64,000 nucleotides of DNA from contig OMXS01000012.1 of the NCBI GenBank assembly GCA_900315095.1, positions 31,916-95,915 on the forward strand, read 5' to 3'. Under the pieces are notes generated by a model. That model worked only from the letters and a program-made list of their open reading frames with translations. It made no database searches and was not told the DNA's origin. Made by a program: the position numbers and the translations under genes. Positions 3-7,286 of the stretch are shown in pieces (the stretch's first letter is position 1; every line of letters starts with the position of its first letter). This DNA comes from an uncultured Prevotellaceae bacterium. Lineage in GTDB: Bacteria > Bacteroidota > Bacteroidia > Bacteroidales > Bacteroidaceae.

Positions 3-113
3 TCATACTCTGAATTTATGACAGAGCAAGATCAAGTTGATATTATTAACGCAATAGGCAACTATCTTAATCTGTTTATCGAAACTCATGGTTTCACAAA
101 TAAAAGGCTCTAA
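3..113 (+). CDS. C-terminal end of an unidentified protein (partial)
   Basis: An open frame enters from the left edge and stops with TAA at 111-113, giving 36 residues that include MTEQDQVDIINAIGNYL. The next gene starts two bases after this stop, so it belongs to the same operon. The 36 residues are too few to assign a family; hsdM or an accessory gene of the restriction operon are candidates by position only. Confidence 0.5.
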   Translation, partial: SYSEFMTEQDQVDIINAIGNYLNLFIETHGFTNKRL

Positions 114-114
114 T

Positions 115-348
115 ATGATTACTGTACAAGACTTATACAATATTGTAGGCAATAAGATTGCCAATGAGGCTCAGAAATCAATAATTCGATACGACTTACC
201 TCCGCAAACAGCGGAACAGATGTGTAATGCTATAGACCATCATGAGGCTGCTGATCTTTTTCAGCGTTTCTTGACTGAATGGATAGAAGCTCAACAGAGA
301 CAACAGCAGGCTATACAATCGTTCCTACAATTGTACTACAACAGATGA
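115..348 (+). CDS. small hypothetical protein upstream of hsdS
   Basis: A 77-residue protein, glutamine-rich near the C-terminus (EAQQRQQQAIQSFLQLYY) and predicted mostly helical, with no signal peptide or metal motif. The ATG at 115 is preferred over the in-frame ATG at 88 because the upstream gene stops at 113 and AAAAGG lies about 7 bases before it. Its TGA overlaps the hsdS start (ATGA at 345-348), so translation of hsdS is probably coupled to it. I do not recognise the family. Position suggests an accessory of the restriction-modification operon, but nothing in the sequence shows what it does. Confidence 0.6.
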   Translation: MITVQDLYNIVGNKIANEAQKSIIRYDLPPQTAEQMCNAIDHHEAADLFQRFLTEWIEAQQRQQQAIQSFLQLYYNR

Positions 349-1571
349 CTAACAAAGAAAAACATATACCACAAGGATATAAGGACTCTCCACTTGGTAT
401 CATCCCTAAGGAATGGGAAGTGAAGAGGTTAGGAGACATATGCGATTATGTTGATTATAGAGGAAAAAGCCCTAATAAATCTTCTAAAGGTATATTCCTC
501 GTTACTGCAAAAAACATTCGTGAAGGATATATTGATTATGAGGTTTCACAAGAATTTATTCCAATAGATGAATTCGAAGATACAATGCGCAGAGGAAAAG
601 CACAGATTGGGGATGTCTTAATTACTACCGAGGCACCTTTAGGACATGTGGCCCAAATTGACAAATCTAATATTGCACTCGCTCAACGAGTAATCAAATA
701 CAGAGCCAAAAATGGACTTCTTAATACATACCTGAAATATTATCTTATGTCCGAAAAGTTCCAGACCATATTGACTGCGAATGCTACTGGAAGTACTGCT
801 TTGGGCATAAAAGGTAGCAGATTACATCAGTTGCCAATTGCCTTTCCGTGCATAGTAGAACAGAAAAAAATACTTAATATTTTGAATCTTTGGGACACCG
901 CCATAGAGAAGCAATCAGAATTGATTGAAAAACTCAAATTGCGCAAACGCGCATTGATGCAGCAACTCCTTACAGGCAAGAAGCGCCTGCCAGGATTTAG
1001 TGGGGAGTGGAAAGAGGTTAAATTAGGAGATGTCTTTGATGAGCGTAATGAAACAAACCGTGATGATTTGCCCCTGCTGTCAATAACAGGTGACAAAGGG
1101 GTTATATATCAATCTGATTCAGATAAAAGAGATATTTCTAATGACGACAAATCAAAGTATAAGCGAATTTGTCCCAACGACATCGGTTATAATACCATGA
1201 GAATGTGGCAAGGCAGAAGTGCATTGTCAAGCATAGAAGGTATTGTAAGCCCAGCTTATACTATTGTCACTCCACACAAGAATGTTGACGTTAGATTCAT
1301 GGCAATGCTCATTCAGCAGCCACGTGTAGTATATGATTTCTGGACACACTCGCAAGGTTTAGTTAGTGATACGCTTAACTGCAAATATCCAGACTTCTGC
1401 CAAGTGAAAGTCCGAATACCTTCTAAAGAAGAGCAAACAGCCATAGCTGATTTGCTGTACGAATTCGACAAAGAAATAAATCTTGCCAACGAGAAATTAG
1501 CAAACCTGCAATCTCAAAAGCGAGGCTTAATGCAGCAATTATTAACTGGTAAAAAAAGAATAAAATTATGA
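345..1571 (+). CDS. hsdS: type I restriction-modification specificity subunit HsdS
   Basis: A 408-residue S subunit, which gives a type I restriction-modification complex its DNA target. It shows the classic two-fold layout: a first target-recognition domain starting at PLGIIPKEWEVKRLGDI, a conserved helical spacer ending in KRALMQQLLTGKKRLPGF, a second recognition domain starting GEWKEVKLGDV, and a second spacer ending in KRGLMQQLLTGKKRIKL. The repeated RxLMQQLLTGKKR motif is typical of this family. The ATG at 345 overlaps the preceding stop; longer in-frame starts would run deep into that gene. Its own stop overlaps the next start (ATGA 1568-1571). HsdM is not in the window and is expected to the left. 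Length is normal, with no sign of recombinational truncation. Confidence 0.95.
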   Translation: MTNKEKHIPQGYKDSPLGIIPKEWEVKRLGDICDYVDYRGKSPNKSSKGIFLVTAKNIREGYIDYEVSQEFIPIDEFEDTMRRGKAQIGDVLITTEAPLGHVAQIDKSNIALAQRVIKYRAKNGLLNTYLKYYLMSEKFQTILTANATGSTALGIKGSRLHQLPIAFPCIVEQKKILNILNLWDTAIEKQSELIEKLKLRKRALMQQLLTGKKRLPGFSGEWKEVKLGDVFDERNETNRDDLPLLSITGDKGVIYQSDSDKRDISNDDKSKYKRICPNDIGYNTMRMWQGRSALSSIEGIVSPAYTIVTPHKNVDVRFMAMLIQQPRVVYDFWTHSQGLVSDTLNCKYPDFCQVKVRIPSKEEQTAIADLLYEFDKEINLANEKLANLQSQKRGLMQQLLTGKKRIKL

Positions 1572-2302
1572 GTTTAAGAGATGATATTATAAAAAAGGCA
1601 AAAGAAATTGAATCAGAGACCTTCTTAGTAGAAGATGTTTCTTACGTTCCAACAATTTCTAACAGCAAACTCACTTTTGGTTGCAAAGGATTAGAGTTTG
1701 AGGCTACTGTTCTATATATAGACATGAGAGGGTCAACTGCTATTTTGAATTCACACAGAAAAAGAGTCGTGGCAAAGATACACATGCTATACTATCACGC
1801 CATTGTCAAGATTGCAAAAGCTACAGGAGGTGAAATACGTAGCTTTAATGGCGATAGTTTGTTAGTATTTTATCAAGGAACAACAAAACAATCGTTGTCA
1901 AACGCCGTAAAAGCTGCAATGCAAATGAAATATGCAATTAAAACTTTGCTAAATGACAATTTGAAAAATTATACTGATATAGATTTTGGAATTGGCATAG
2001 ATGATGGGAAAATTTTAGCAACAAAAGTAGGTGTCGGTGGTACTGATGAAACCAAAGATTTAATATGGATTGGTAATGCTGTAAATAAATCCACTAAAAT
2101 TAGCGATAATTGTAAATCATCTTTTAACATCGGCATTTCTAAACGAGTATATGACAATCTTCTTGACAACGTAAAGTATCATGAGAAAGACAATGGTGTT
2201 TTTGGTAAACAGAAAATAAATATGTGGAACCAAAACTATTTTACATATAATGGAGCAAACGAAATGTTCTATAAAACGAGTTATTATTGGACGATTGAAT
2301 AA
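1568..2302 (+). CDS. pycC: class III nucleotide cyclase, probable Pycsar cyclase (PycC)
   Basis: A 244-residue soluble protein with one class III cyclase homology domain (about residues 45-200). The two metal-binding aspartates are visible as D52 in YIDMRGST and D96 in SFNGDSLLVF. The ribose-orienting asparagine is N173 in GNAVNKSTKIS. The residue four positions later, usually the transition-state arginine, is Lys177. There is no sensor, membrane or HAMP domain. In the Pycsar defence system such stand-alone cyclases make cCMP or cUMP on phage infection and a neighbouring effector responds. The start overlaps the hsdS stop by four bases, and the PycTM-like gene follows after 24 bases. Cyclase identity is clear from sequence; the pyrimidine product is inferred from the neighbouring effector. 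An ordinary adenylate cyclase is the alternative. Confidence 0.82.
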   Translation: MSLRDDIIKKAKEIESETFLVEDVSYVPTISNSKLTFGCKGLEFEATVLYIDMRGSTAILNSHRKRVVAKIHMLYYHAIVKIAKATGGEIRSFNGDSLLVFYQGTTKQSLSNAVKAAMQMKYAIKTLLNDNLKNYTDIDFGIGIDDGKILATKVGVGGTDETKDLIWIGNAVNKSTKISDNCKSSFNIGISKRVYDNLLDNVKYHEKDNGVFGKQKINMWNQNYFTYNGANEMFYKTSYYWTIE

Positions 2303-2326
2303 TTCAAATAAAGATAAAGAACAATT

Positions 2327-2869
2327 ATGGAAAAAAAAGATTATTGTACTGAATTACACAACCAAATAATTGGTTGGACAAGTAATTGCGACACAAAGGC
2401 ATCAATTGTACTTGCCTTTATTGGAATACTTGTTTCCATTACATTTACCAGCGAATATCTCTTAGTAGGTGTTCAAACAGAAATTGAAAACATCATAAAC
2501 TATTGGAAAAACGGCATCGGTGGCTTCAGTTTATTGTCTACATTTATGTTTCTTTCACTATTCGGCTTCGTTATTTCCACGCTGTTATGCTGTTATTATG
2601 TAATATCATCGTTAAAGGCTAATCTCGAATGTCCTAATGATTCCATTATCTTCTTTAGAAAGATAGCGGAATTGTCCAAAGAAAAATATATCGAAAGAGT
2701 AAATAGTTTATCAGAAGAGGAATTCGATCAAGACAAACTTTCTCAAATACATATTTGTGCAAAAATATGTGATGAAAAATTCAAGTTTTACAATAAGAGC
2801 ACCAAGTATCTAAAATGGGGCTTATTGTTGTTTGTTTGTTTAGTGTTTTTTGTAGTTTTATTGAAATAA
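2327..2869 (+). CDS. pycTM: PycTM-type membrane effector (DUF5706-like)
   Basis: A 180-residue protein with an N-terminal amphipathic stretch, a membrane segment following the family-like motif CDTKASIVLAFIGILVSI (residues about 22-45), a second at about residues 64-90, a charged cytoplasmic loop, and a C-terminal segment (WGLLLFVCLVFFVVLLK). This layout and the DxKAS..L..IGIL motif match PycTM effectors, which bind a cyclic pyrimidine nucleotide and damage the inner membrane to abort phage infection. It follows the cyclase by 24 bases, the expected gene order for Pycsar. Family assignment is by pattern recognition and context; the length matches compact PycTM proteins. Confidence 0.78.
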   Translation: MEKKDYCTELHNQIIGWTSNCDTKASIVLAFIGILVSITFTSEYLLVGVQTEIENIINYWKNGIGGFSLLSTFMFLSLFGFVISTLLCCYYVISSLKANLECPNDSIIFFRKIAELSKEKYIERVNSLSEEEFDQDKLSQIHICAKICDEKFKFYNKSTKYLKWGLLLFVCLVFFVVLLK

Positions 2870-2892: not shown

Positions 2893-3240
2893 ATGTTTAA
2901 TCAGGGAATCAGGCGTGTACAAGAAATGCTTCGAGAAAATAATAACGAGGAAGCTGTTTTTGATGTTTCTAAGTTAACCGTTTTTGAAGTGAATGTTTTC
3001 TCAACTGTTGATGATGTCACTCAAGATGTCACTCAAGATGTCACTCAAGGTGATACCCAAGGTGATACCCTTGATGCTTGGATAGAGACTCAGATAAAGA
3101 AAAATCCCAAAGTGACAACTGAGGAATTGGCAAGTTTGAGTAATAAAGGGGTTGCTACAATTAAACGTCATCTTGCGAAATTGCCTCATATTAAATATGT
3201 AGGAAGTGGTTATAGTGGGCACTGGGAAATAGAAAAATAG
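2893..3240 (+). pseudogene. C-terminal remnant of an AlbA_2/Schlafen-type ATP-binding regulator
   Basis: A 115-residue open frame that begins in the middle of a known architecture. Residues 1-35 (GIRRVQEMLRENN...FEVNVF) look like the end of the AlbA_2/RecG-like putative transcriptional regulators, where this segment normally lies about 350 residues into the protein. A low-complexity linker of VTQD/GDTQ repeats follows, then a winged-helix-like end (TTEELASLSNKGVATIKRHL). No upstream sequence encoding the N-terminal AlbA_2 or ATPase part is present, so this is probably a deletion remnant left when neighbouring defence genes were exchanged. It could still be translated as a small DNA-binding protein. 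It ends 7 bases before hsdR. Confidence 0.6.
3013..3072 (+). repeat. five tandem 12-bp units inside the remnant gene
   Basis: Three copies of GATGTCACTCAA are followed by two diverged units (GGTGATACCCAA, GGTGATACCCTT). Each unit encodes four residues (DVTQ or GDTQ). Because the unit is a multiple of three, copy-number change would keep the frame. Confidence 0.85.
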
Positions 3241-3247
3241 GGCAAAT

Positions 3248-6200
3248 ATGGATAGAATATCATTCAAGGAAAACGATATAAGCCAAAAGCCGGCTTTGGA
3301 ATTGTTGCAGAAGTTGGGCTATCAGTATCTTTCGCCAGAGGAAGCGTTGATGATGCGAGGCGGAAAGACTTCCAATGTGTTGTTGGAAGAGGTGCTGAGA
3401 CGGCAGTTGCGAGAATTGAACTCCATACGGGTGGGCAGTCGCAAGGAGGAACGTTTCTCGGAACAGAACATTGAGAACGGCGTGATAGCCATGCGGAATG
3501 TGCCAATGGAAGGCGGTTATCTAAGTGGCAATGAGGCTGTTTATAACATGCTAACGCTTGGAAAGGCTTTTGAGCAGAGTATTGATGGGGACAAGAAAAC
3601 CTATACGATGCGCTATATTGACTGGGAACACCCTGAAAACAATGTTTATCACGTAACAGAAGAGTTTGCAGTTACCCGTACCGGCATTGCTGACACCTAC
3701 CGTCCTGACATCGTGCTGTTCGTGAACGGTATTCCATTGGTGGTGATAGAGTGTAAACGACCAGATATCAAGGGGGCTGAAGAACAGGCTATTTCTCAGC
3801 ATCTGCGTAATCAGCAGGATGACGGCATCAGGGGACTTTATGTATATAGTGCCCTACTATTGGCTATCGGCAATAACTTCGGAAGTTACGCCACCACTGG
3901 TTCAGCTCAGAAGTTCTGGTGTAAATGGCGCGAGATGCATATCAACAAAGATGAGGAATTGGAGTATGAGAAAAGACTATTAGATATCGTAAACAGAGAT
4001 GAGGATGAAGTACGGACCGCCACAGAGCAAGACAGATATATCTACAACCTATGTCGTCCAGAGCGTTTACTGGAACTGATCTACCATTTTACAATCTATG
4101 ATGCTGGTATCAAGAAGTTAGCTCGCTATCAGCAATTCTTCACGGTGAAAGAGATTGTTGAGCGAGTGAAACGAATTGAAGCAGGCAAACGCAATGGTGG
4201 TGTAGTGTGGCACACTCAAGGAAGCGGTAAGTCACTGACAATGGTGATGCTGGCACAAAAGATTGCTACTGTTGTGCAGAATCCAAGGATTGTCTTGGTG
4301 ACAGACCGTACCGACTTGGATGCACAAATCACCAAGACATTCCGTAAATGTGGTAAGGATGTGGAGAATGCGACAACTGGCATCAAACTGGTGGAGTTAT
4401 TGGAAGGTAATACAGATTCCGTCATTACAACCATTATCAATAAGTTTGCAACCGCCATTAAGAAAATCAAGCAGCCATTGACTGACCCGAATATCTTTAT
4501 TTTAATCGATGAGGCCCATCGAAGTCAATATAAGGAAATGGCCATACAGATGAATCGCGTTCTGCCCAATGCATGTAAAATTGCCTTTACGGGTACGCCT
4601 CTGATGAAAAAAGACAAAAATACAGCTCGCACTTTCGGAGGTATCATCAAACCTGTCTATACTGTGAAGCAGGCTGTAGAAGACCATGCTGTGGTGCCAC
4701 TTCTCTATGAAGGGCGCATTGTGCCCCAATTCGTCACGGAAGGACCTATCGACAGTTTCTTTGATCGTGTGTGTGAGGACTTGACGGAAGAACAGTCTGT
4801 GGATTTGAAAAAGAAATTTTCTAGAACGGACATCCTGAATCAGACTGAGCAACGCATCTTTTCAATTGCAACAGACATTTCAGAGCATTACGCAGACAAC
4901 TGGAAGGGAACTGGCTTTAAGGCCATGTTGGTGACACCCAAGAAACGAGTTGCCATCCTATACAAGAAATATCTGGATGAGATTGGCAAAGTTACATCAG
5001 AAGTGCTGATTACGGCACCAGACGATCGTGAGGGTGAAGAAACAGCTTACGGAGGGACACCTGAGGAGGTAAAAGTCTTCTGGAAAAAGATGATGGATGA
5101 GCATGGAGCCCCACATAAATATCAGGAGAATCTGATTGCCAGATTCAAGGGACAGGAGGATCCGGAAATTATGATTGTCGTTGATAAATTGCTGACTGGA
5201 TTTGACGAGCCAAAAGTAACAGTCATGTATATTGACCGTCATCTGACAGGACATACACTACTGCAGGCTGTGGCTCGTGTCAATCGTAATTGTGACGGAA
5301 AAGACTATGGCTATATCATTGACTACTATGGCGTGCTGGCAGAATTGGATGATGCGTTAAGCATCTACTCTGAGTATGACGAAGAAGACAAAGAAGTATT
5401 CCGTGAGACACTGGCCCCTGTTAGTGACAAGATTGCAGAACTTCCTCAAAAGAATGCCGACTTATGGGATTTGTTCAAGACAATTCCCAACAAACGTGAC
5501 TTAGAGGCATACGCCCAATCATTGCGACTGGAAGACAGGCGTCATGAGTTCTATGACCGTCTGACAGCTTTCTCATCAGTGCTTCAACTGGCTCTTTCTA
5601 CTAAGGAGTTTCATGAGAATACAGATGAAAAGACGATTGAACGATACAAAGAAGATTTACGTATGTTTGCCAAACTGCGCACTTCTGTTCAATTGCGCTA
5701 TTCCGATGCCGTTGACTATAAGAAGTACGAGGCAAGGATTGAAAAACTCATTAATCGTCATGTGGAGAGCGATGAGGTAAAGGTCATCACAAAGTTGGTT
5801 AACATCTTCGATACAGAGAATTTCCAGAAGGAGGTTGACAGTATTGTTGGAACGGCAGCCAAAGCAGATACCATTGCTTCGCGTACCTCTAAATATATCA
5901 AGGAGAATATGGATTCTGATCCTGCCTTCTACAAGAAATTCTCTCAACTGATTCGTGAGGCTATTGAAGCATACGAGCAGGGACGTCTTAGCGATAACGA
6001 GTATCTGGAAAAGATGATGCAGTATAAGGAAGATGTACTGAATCATACGGACAGTGAACTACCAGCAGAGTTAGAGCATAACAATGCTGGTAAAGCCTAT
6101 TATGGTATCGCATTGGAGAATTATAAACGACTTTTCTCAGATCAGCCCATCAAAGAAATGGCTCTTGCTACAACCAAAGCTTTCGATGAGATTATCCGTA

Positions 6201-6394
6201 AAGCAGTAATTGTTGACAATGCGATCTTAGTTGATTGGCAGTCAAAGAGTGATATCATCGGAAAAATGAAGATTGATCTGGAAGACGAGTTGATAGATAA
6301 TATCAAGCGGAAGTACGAACTTGAATTCTCATTCGACGACATGGATGTGATTATTGACGGTTGTGTAGATGTGGCTAAGATATGGCTCAAATAA
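3248..6394 (+). CDS. hsdR: type I restriction enzyme endonuclease/translocase subunit HsdR
   Basis: A 1048-residue R subunit that cuts DNA after ATP-driven translocation. The N-terminal PD-(D/E)XK nuclease shows D154 in YRPDIVLF and E168/K170 in VVIECKRPD. The superfamily 2 helicase motor follows: Walker A TQGSGKS at about 323-329, DEAH at 421-424, FTGTPL near 448, then the second RecA-like lobe with DKLLTGFDEPKVTVMY and QAVARVNR. The C-terminal helical part contacts the methylase core. Length and motifs are complete, so the enzyme should be functional. It is the last large gene of the operon and overlaps the next gene by 13 bases. Confidence 0.96.
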   Translation: MDRISFKENDISQKPALELLQKLGYQYLSPEEALMMRGGKTSNVLLEEVLRRQLRELNSIRVGSRKEERFSEQNIENGVIAMRNVPMEGGYLSGNEAVYNMLTLGKAFEQSIDGDKKTYTMRYIDWEHPENNVYHVTEEFAVTRTGIADTYRPDIVLFVNGIPLVVIECKRPDIKGAEEQAISQHLRNQQDDGIRGLYVYSALLLAIGNNFGSYATTGSAQKFWCKWREMHINKDEELEYEKRLLDIVNRDEDEVRTATEQDRYIYNLCRPERLLELIYHFTIYDAGIKKLARYQQFFTVKEIVERVKRIEAGKRNGGVVWHTQGSGKSLTMVMLAQKIATVVQNPRIVLVTDRTDLDAQITKTFRKCGKDVENATTGIKLVELLEGNTDSVITTIINKFATAIKKIKQPLTDPNIFILIDEAHRSQYKEMAIQMNRVLPNACKIAFTGTPLMKKDKNTARTFGGIIKPVYTVKQAVEDHAVVPLLYEGRIVPQFVTEGPIDSFFDRVCEDLTEEQSVDLKKKFSRTDILNQTEQRIFSIATDISEHYADNWKGTGFKAMLVTPKKRVAILYKKYLDEIGKVTSEVLITAPDDREGEETAYGGTPEEVKVFWKKMMDEHGAPHKYQENLIARFKGQEDPEIMIVVDKLLTGFDEPKVTVMYIDRHLTGHTLLQAVARVNRNCDGKDYGYIIDYYGVLAELDDALSIYSEYDEEDKEVFRETLAPVSDKIAELPQKNADLWDLFKTIPNKRDLEAYAQSLRLEDRRHEFYDRLTAFSSVLQLALSTKEFHENTDEKTIERYKEDLRMFAKLRTSVQLRYSDAVDYKKYEARIEKLINRHVESDEVKVITKLVNIFDTENFQKEVDSIVGTAAKADTIASRTSKYIKENMDSDPAFYKKFSQLIREAIEAYEQGRLSDNEYLEKMMQYKEDVLNHTDSELPAELEHNNAGKAYYGIALENYKRLFSDQPIKEMALATTKAFDEIIRKAVIVDNAILVDWQSKSDIIGKMKIDLEDELIDNIKRKYELEFSFDDMDVIIDGCVDVAKIWLK

Positions 6395-7089
6395 CAAGAG
6401 ACCATATACAATATGGAGCAACTATTATCGATTATGATATAGAGTTCTCCCCAAGAAAGACACTGAGCATTTGTGTCAATCCTGATAGTACCGTCTGTCT
6501 GAAGGCGCCTTTAGATGCGACCTTAGAACAGGTTCAACAGAAAGTGCACAAAAGGGCCAGTTGGATTCTCAAACAAAAGCGGTTTTTTGAGTCATTCGGC
6601 ACACCTACAACGAAGCGCCAGTATATCAGTGGAGAATCGCATCTATATTTGGGACGCCAGTATATGCTCAAGGTAAGGGAAAGTAATGTGAATGCGGTCC
6701 ATTATCAGAATAACATCATTGAGATAGAGTGTCGTCACAGAAAGGATGCCGGTGTGCTGTTACAAACTTGGTATCGCCAACGGGCCAACATCAAATTCCT
6801 GGAATATGCGAAGCCTATCATTGAACAATTCTCTGCTTATGGTGTAAAGCCCCAAAGTCTTTCTATTAAGAAGATGGATAAACGATGGGGGTATTGTACC
6901 ATTGATGGACATATCACGTTAAACCCTCGGTTGATTTGTGCCCCCAGATGTTGTATTGAGTATGTCATCACACACGAATTATGCCACCTCATCCATCGCA
7001 GCCATAATAAGGATTTCTACGCACTTCTTACCAAGGAAATGCCACATTGGGAGAAGTGGAAAAACAAACTTGAGCGAATAATGTCATAA
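6382..7089 (+). CDS. YgjP/DUF45-type zinc metallopeptidase
   Basis: A 235-residue protein of the YgjP-like (DUF45) family. The zinc site is visible as HELCH at residues 198-202, with H208 as the likely third ligand (HELCHLIHRSHNKDFYALL). The preceding KRWGYCTIDGHITLNPRL block is also characteristic. The N-terminal half (about 1-110) is a beta-rich domain without a signal peptide, so the protein should be cytoplasmic. The start overlaps the hsdR end by 13 bases, so it is co-translated with the restriction genes. This family is often found beside type I restriction operons in bacteria; its substrate there is not known. Confidence 0.85.
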   Translation: MAQITRDHIQYGATIIDYDIEFSPRKTLSICVNPDSTVCLKAPLDATLEQVQQKVHKRASWILKQKRFFESFGTPTTKRQYISGESHLYLGRQYMLKVRESNVNAVHYQNNIIEIECRHRKDAGVLLQTWYRQRANIKFLEYAKPIIEQFSAYGVKPQSLSIKKMDKRWGYCTIDGHITLNPRLICAPRCCIEYVITHELCHLIHRSHNKDFYALLTKEMPHWEKWKNKLERIMS

Positions 7090-7250: not shown

Positions 7251-7286
7251 TGGCGCATGGTCTTAGTGACTGTGCGCCATTTTTTA
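7251..7286. terminator. intrinsic terminator between convergent genes
   Basis: The arms TGGCGCA (7251-7257) and TGCGCCA (7273-7279) form a 7-bp stem followed by a T run (7280-7285). It lies between the end of the restriction operon and the end of the convergent transporter gene. Confidence 0.75.

Follow-up and report, generated by a model that had tools for sequence, protein, structure and literature searches.

Several features of the closest described systems bear on the locus analysed here. Pycsar cyclases differ in product, that used with BcPycC being cUMP and that of the E. coli PycC being cCMP, as given in PMC9117128. They also differ in the residues that read the base, which according to PMC11224242 are Y50, D94 and R97 in BcPycC and F60, K104 and F109 in AnPycC, both acting on UTP, and F100, R142 and Q144 in the CTP enzyme EaPycC; the same paper describes reading of uracil by N143 of the receptor PsPycTIR, the Ala and Ser mutants of which lose the cUMP response. 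Type I restriction loci are known to house other genes, examples being PrrC in EcoprrI and, in Campylobacter hsd loci, the rlo genes (PMC2610378), and DarTG2 lies between hsdS and hsdR, a gap proposed as a potential recombination hotspot (PMC12255303). Here we describe a 64,000-nucleotide stretch (positions 31,916-95,915) of contig OMXS01000012.1 from an uncultured Prevotellaceae bacterium (the window), in which a Pycsar-type cyclase gene, pycC, and a membrane effector gene, pycTM, lie between hsdS and hsdR of a type I operon. Type I operons are already known to carry defence cargo; for Pycsar as such cargo we found no report, no title or abstract linking Pycsar with type I restriction having turned up in a search with preprints and most subscription journals outside it.

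A PycC-PycTM pair inside and outside type I operons

An earlier note on this DNA had read in it a class III cyclase with residues D52, D96 and N173, its start overlapping the hsdS stop, followed 24 bases later by a multi-pass protein with the motif CDTKASIVLAF. The coordinates given for the pair are exact (Table 1) and all three residues are present; the pycC ATG overlaps the hsdS stop as ATGA (1568-1571), pycTM starts 24 bp after the end of pycC, and its 180-residue product has three hydropathy segments (peaks at 27-45, 75-93 and 161-179) with the motif at residues 21-31. The naming of the two as PycC and PycTM is borne out by PADLOC, in which the cyclase matches PycC models PDLC02367 (9.5e-68) and PDLC00766 (1.2e-44) and the effector matches PycTM model PDLC02364 (4e-31), both at levels well outside what chance would give. 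The same comparison with Pfam fell short, as pycTM scores 23.8 bits against a cut-off of 27.2 for PF18967 (PycTM). Among relatives the effector of L012, 61% identical to that of the window, passes with 32.4 bits, and those of L011 (26.0) and L017 (25.9) lie below; the cut-off is a threshold of one model and not a feature of Pycsar. The placing of hsdR downstream also stands, but it is not directly next, a 115-aa open reading frame (ORF) lying between.

Pfam recognizes in pycC the general Guanylate_cyc domain only. The metal-binding Asp pair (D52, D96) and the transition-state Asn (N173) are invariant across 13 aligned rows including the window, the alignment being made without two relatives, L023 (shortened) and L024 (split into two ORFs). 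In the PDB, sequence and fold comparison alike rank the cUMP synthase 7r65 (BcPycC) first, with fold matches to purine cyclases nearly as good. An AlphaFold2 model, checked for the extra N-terminal helix of PycC cyclases, has a helix at residues 3-16 (block pLDDT 79 and 70), with residues 23-39 below 50; that of pycTM is all helix (mean pLDDT 81.7), and a sequence search of the PDB with pycTM found nothing up to E 1. BcPycC falls outside the window's group in a tree, but on long branches flagged as unsafe, and we therefore do not call the window cyclase clade B; clade letters for PADLOC models are in any case our reading of model lengths and are not printed by PADLOC. Both genes are under purifying selection relative to L011, with dN/dS of 0.11 for pycC and 0.16 for pycTM.

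A genome scan gave 14 relatives of this cyclase type and hence, with the window, 15 loci. The nearest of named source is L011, from a Prevotella metagenome-assembled genome of yak omasum, with a cyclase 89% identical to pycC. A search for other operons of this arrangement had been proposed, and five of the 14 other loci (L011, L013, L014, L015 and L018) prove to have the same cyclase type within type I operons, making six of 15 with the window. All of hsdM, hsdS and hsdR are present in the window, L011 and L018; L013 has hsdS and hsdR on a contig that begins before hsdM, and L014 and L015 have hsdM and hsdS on contigs that end before hsdR. The order in L018 is hsdM-hsdS-PycC-PycTIR-second cyclase-AlbA_2-hsdR, and its HsdM and HsdR share only 29% identity with those of the window, so that its embedding either arose separately or is very old. 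Embedding of Pycsar in type I operons is real and recurrent.

At the nine remaining loci (L012, L016, L017 and L019-L024) no hsd match was found in the examined flanks with queries that included the distant L018 set; the flanks reach only 2.3 kb upstream in L016 and only 1.3 and 3.2 kb downstream in L019 and L020, respectively. An effector gene adjoins the cyclase in all nine, with a weaker match in L022 (2e-12), and the Pycsar module therefore seems not to need restriction genes. A PycTM-like gene is likewise adjacent in each of L011-L017. A profile search for the family at 1e-25 gave hits in 6/393 genomes of an order-level sample; only the window and G226, with the gene order of L012, exceed 400 bits there. 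A phage origin is without support, as none of 18 candidate stretches in viral contigs was confirmed as a cyclase relative and there is a single distant match among 50,697 phage records. Matches were found in 40 plasmid records, all below 60% identity, of which six were examined, hand-picked from 20 among the matches listed.

Two further settings may be mentioned. In L016 an AlbA_2-like gene (3881-4966; 7e-22 to one of those in L014) follows PycTM with no hsd gene seen, and may be what is left of an earlier type I context. On the Hoyosella plasmid NC_015561.1 (L085) a Pycsar pair adjoins a gene for an SprT-type metalloprotease and an opposite-strand hsdR.

Contents of the hsdS-hsdR slot

To place the pair among related operons, we used HsdR relatives, which occur in 33 of 393 order-level genomes at 1e-180 and in four of 300 genus-level genomes at 1e-100, the window being counted in both. 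Neighbourhoods were examined for 29 of the 32 other order-level matches, leaving out G101, G145 and G410 with little or no upstream sequence, and for all three of the other genus-level matches. A complete hsdS-hsdR slot is present in 26 of these 32 neighbourhoods and not in the other six. Apart from an empty one (L049), every complete slot holds ORFs (25/26), in a count that omits ORFs under 90 aa without a match and includes some that by eye look like transposases or spurious (for instance in L054, L063 and L065). One slot, in L064 (G381), carries Pycsar, with a PycTM (3.5e-44) and a 418-aa PycC (2e-140); the cyclase type of the window is in none of the 26. Pycsar is therefore a minority cargo. 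Eight other slot proteins were scanned with PADLOC, and four gave matches of 1e-20 or better, namely a kinase, a HAD-like PDC-S34, a ThsB-like PDC-S66 and a patatin.

The contents differ wholly even among the closest operons, whose HsdR proteins are 92-97% identical to that of the window: a HAD protein and a protein of no family in L034, a relative of the latter with an AlbA_2-like gene in L035, and a ThsB-like gene with a full AlbA_2 gene in L036. The L034 protein had looked GNAT-like by eye, a view dropped when Pfam gave no family. The hsdS-hsdR gap is a cargo slot with swapped contents. Elsewhere, two large genes (1149 and 715 aa) occupy L061 8123-13706 and a 571-aa protein fills the slot of L045 (11806-13521); neither the 715-aa nor the 571-aa protein has a PADLOC match at 1e-3.

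The right-hand junction of the pyc genes can be placed. From position 2893 the window matches the full AlbA_2 gene and hsdR start of L036 (94% over 368 bp), with no match before 2893 in the compared stretch. As the match starts exactly there, and as 357 of the 472 codons of the L036 gene precede the junction point, the pyc genes sit where roughly three quarters of an AlbA_2 gene used to be; L011 has the same junction. A full-length relative of the 115-aa ORF, in L014, has SLFN_AlbA_2 and HATPase_c_4 domains. The ORF was considered as a new regulator, but since its DNA matches the end of the AlbA_2 gene a relic or kept AlbA_2 tail is simpler.

A similar tail, left by an internal deletion, is seen at L044 13195-13587. 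AlbA_2 genes have been shortened in two ways, in the window and in L044, and in both the repeat linker and the winged-helix tail survive in front of hsdR; the winged-helix part may have been kept because it serves some purpose.

Compared with L011, the window shows a mosaic of identity levels, at 91-100% over 1626-2075, 64-83% over 2076-2600 and 97-100% from 2601 to about 3700, and lower in hsdR. Because the pattern is patchy, recombination appears to have moved pieces of the module, with exchanges within pycC and pycTM. The GC content of pycC and pycTM is 31-32%, against 44-45% for hsdM and hsdR.

The reading that best accommodates these observations, to which we assign a probability of about 0.78, is that the pair is a self-contained Pycsar abortive-infection module, exchangeable cargo of the hsdS-hsdR slot, and that a single promoter upstream drives its transcription together with that of the restriction genes. 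A phage cue of some kind would activate PycC, whose active sites are expected to lie between the two subunits of a dimer. The enzyme would make a 3',5'-cyclic mononucleotide from a nucleoside triphosphate, and this product would cause PycTM to disrupt the membrane and so stop the infected cell. What the data show directly is the identity, order and conservation of the genes, the purifying selection on them and the swapping of slot contents; co-transcription, the dimer, trigger and product, the membrane damage and the role in phage defence are inferred.

Base pocket of the cyclase and competing readings

The changed base pocket is the most interesting point of the locus. Numbering of the window cyclase coincides with that of BcPycC, and pocket positions are taken from alignment rather than from a ligand structure. 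All 13 aligned cyclases of the window's type have N94, with Ser (11) or Gly (2) at position 97 and Tyr (11) or Phe (2) at position 50; L023 and L024, outside the alignment, both read N94 and G97. By comparison, Y50/D94/R97 is found in every one of the nine clade-B-like rows sampled, which comprise BcPycC, the partner cyclase of L021 and seven cyclases of a hand-picked set of six plasmids; PDLC00766 or PDLC02367 is the best model for the seven of these that were scanned. With PDLC00766 the window cyclase scores 150 bits, against 201-341 for seven scanned D94/R97 cyclases. The window cyclase keeps Y50 of the cUMP code of clade B but has N94 and S97; against the cCMP code of clade E (F100/R142/Q144) it reads Y50, S92 and N94, and against the cUMP code of clade D (F60/K104/F109) Y50, N94 and L99. 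As a control, the L064 cyclase reads F, R and Q, like EaPycC.

The product of the window's lineage may thus differ from cUMP. It is possible, if doubtful, that the lineage signals with something else, such as cCMP or another cyclic mononucleotide, and that its receptors have changed too. The uniform split at positions 94 and 97 favours this, as do N94, an amide at the place of Q144 in EaPycC, and a Gly in the PycTIR partner of L018 at the place of N143 in PsPycTIR, where the PycTIR proteins of L083 and L084 keep Asn. However, the window cyclase has S92 where the CTP enzyme has its -4 Arg, cUMP is made in clade D by another residue set, so that pockets can differ at equal product, and N94 may be a single ancestral event. 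Moreover, the TIR protein of L018, the one PycTIR of the lineage seen, may answer to the other of the two cyclases at that locus. If the pocket is read correctly, Pycsar signalling would use a broader chemistry than the cUMP and cCMP mapped so far.

A second, different cyclase stands beside the first at six of the 15 loci (Table 1), each with a single effector gene seen, PycTM in five and PycTIR in L018. Those of L011, L013, L015 and L018 match PADLOC PDLC02368 (1.2e-85 or better) and keep both metal Asp and the Asn, with Asn at the K177 place in three and Lys in L018; those of L021 and L023 are of other types. In L077 and L078 the PDLC02368 family occurs by itself, next to a PycTM-like gene of its own, although the L078 copy has Gly at the catalytic Asn place. 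Such independent occurrence, together with the lack of a second cyclase in the window (which has one only), L012, L014, L016 and L017, excludes the second cyclase as an obligate partner of PycC. Two cyclases with one effector are also found on a Streptomyces plasmid. Such loci could serve to test if several phage sensors act through a single executioner. A bolder proposal, to which we would give somewhat less weight than to a changed signal as such, is that of a separate Pycsar lineage, enzyme and receptors both off the cUMP code, with cCMP or a cyclic mononucleotide new to Pycsar as signal, and with six relatives forming a two-input alarm, four of them in restriction operons.

An improbable alternative to exchangeable cargo is a restriction-gated backup, as for PrrC in EcoprrI, in which the Hsd complex would silence PycC until a phage anti-restriction protein releases it. 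Recurrence speaks for it, both in the six type I operons, which include the distant family of L018, and in L064, a related operon whose slot holds a different Pycsar, and PrrC provides a precedent (PMC2610378). Against it, the slot holds many unrelated genes, nine of the 15 loci have no hsd match in the examined flanks, and alignment of embedded with free cyclase copies gives no extra domain in the embedded ones. Variable slot contents and the nine loci together lead us to favour exchangeable cargo. The relatives seen without hsd genes also weigh against a strict dependence on restriction, and the earlier suggestion that Pycsar acts as a backup when restriction fails gains no support beyond inference. 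Presence of the same pair inside and outside restriction operons offers a natural test of whether a suicide system gains from such placement.

It is very unlikely that pycC is an ordinary class III adenylate cyclase beside an unrelated small membrane protein. The Pfam results for both proteins and the purine cyclase folds would allow it, but the PADLOC matches to PycC and PycTM are specific, and a PycTM-like gene adjoins in 7/7 of L011-L017, with that of L012 above the Pfam cut-off. In class III adenylate cyclases a Lys at -4 reads adenine; the window cyclase has Ser at this place. Least probable of all is a decaying relic on its way out of the slot, for although a truncated AlbA_2 tail adjoins the module and some relatives are broken (L024, L023), both window genes are intact and under selective constraint.

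Operon layout and comparison with known systems

The operon begins upstream of the window, and 19 kb around the window start (L010) were therefore taken from the 3.24 Mb source assembly (Table 1). A half-size specificity-like gene precedes hsdM, besides the full hsdS, in 26 of the examined loci, its Methylase_S domain having been checked in the window copy only. The distant HsdM of L018 has N6_Mtase and HsdM_N domains. Between hsdM and hsdS lies a second cargo slot, with a 333-aa gene and a Fic gene (L010 7703-10029, window -2213 to 113), a pair also carried by L044. The likely start of hsdS, chosen from the sequence, is the ATG at 345, overlapping the stop of the preceding ORF; the longest ORF begins at 279.

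Table 1. Features of the operon around the window start, and second cyclases of related loci (window coordinates unless a locus is named; negative values lie upstream of the window)
Feature	Position	Strand	Remarks
Half-size specificity gene	-4353 to -3739 (L010 5563-6177)		first operon gene; Methylase_S 5.5e-11
hsdM	-3767 to -2238		named by identity to hsdM of relatives
333-aa gene	-2213 to -1212		no assigned family; between hsdM and Fic gene
Fic-domain gene	-1215 to 113	+	whole gene from L010: Pfam Fic 7.6e-21, PADLOC PDC-S04 1.7e-35; 3' end (1-113) inside window
86-aa ORF	88-348	+	between Fic gene and hsdS; no Pfam match up to E 1; relatives in L011, L034, L045
hsdS, type I specificity subunit	345-1571	+	PADLOC Specificity_I 6.8e-79 on the 279-1568 reading; Pfam Methylase_S, two stretches
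pycC, Pycsar-type class III cyclase	1568-2302	+	244 aa; D52, D96, N173; pocket Y50, S92, N94, S97
pycTM, membrane effector	2327-2869	+	180 aa; three hydrophobic segments; CDTKASIVLAF
115-aa ORF, AlbA_2/HATPase_c_4 gene tail	2893-3240	+	repeat-rich linker; weak helix-turn-helix match
hsdR, type I restriction subunit	3248-6394	+	1048 aa; NCBIfam TIGR00348 3.6e-146; PADLOC REase_I 1.7e-187
YgjP-like metallopeptidase gene	6382-7089	+	last before terminator; Pfam YgjP-like 3.8e-54
Strong terminator-like hairpin	7251-7279 (L010 17167-17195)		3' of YgjP-like gene
Second cyclase, L011	L011 8249-8995		PDLC02368
Second cyclase, L013	L013 3650-4399		PDLC02368
Second cyclase, L015	L015 8249-8995		PDLC02368
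Second cyclase, L018	L018 8960-9703		PDLC02368
Second cyclase, L021	L021 7448-8152		other type
Second cyclase, L023	L023 3518-4465		other type

Bacteroides-type promoters follow the pattern TTTG-N17-23-TAnnTTTG. The sole full match on the plus strand of L010 is at window position -4389, just 5' of the first operon gene, and there are no matches in the 10.7 kb that come after it; as shuffled operon sequence averages 0.22 matches, this absence is consistent with one promoter and not telling. Among 26 examined loci the pattern is upstream of the first operon gene in 17 and inside the operon in seven (L014, L015, L044, L053, L054, L060 and L064), where it lies within or before hsd genes and never directly before pyc genes. 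A scan for sigma-70 sites was set aside, giving 43 sites against 35.7 (sd 6.7) in shuffles. Gene spacing and the pattern scan suggest that a single upstream promoter serves both the pyc genes and the restriction genes.

The locus resembles a clade B PycC (BcPycC, 7r65) with its PycTM in that its class III cyclase stands alone, carries the metal Asp pair and adjoins a PycTM, and departs from BcPycC in its N94/S97 in place of D94/R97, its lower PDLC00766 score and its type I operon setting. In the manner of embedded cargo, a complete second system lies between hsd genes, and slot contents vary across related operons. Payne et al., in bioRxiv in 2024, reportedly set out a guilt-by-embedding principle for defences embedded in immune systems, and the matches of some slot cargoes to PADLOC PDC models are in line with it. 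Like PrrC, the module would be an abortive-infection gene set inserted in a type I locus, but PrrC is described in PMC2610378 as silenced by type Ic restriction and invariably linked to it, whereas the module type of the window occurs at nine of 15 loci with no hsd match in the examined flanks. With the DarTG2 operon, as described in PMC12255303, the window shares a second whole defence system in the same gap, a single operon and a metallopeptidase gene after hsdR; the DarTG2 operon carries toxin-antitoxin cargo and begins with the repressor gene rptR, whereas that of the window carries cyclic-nucleotide cargo and begins with the half-size specificity gene.

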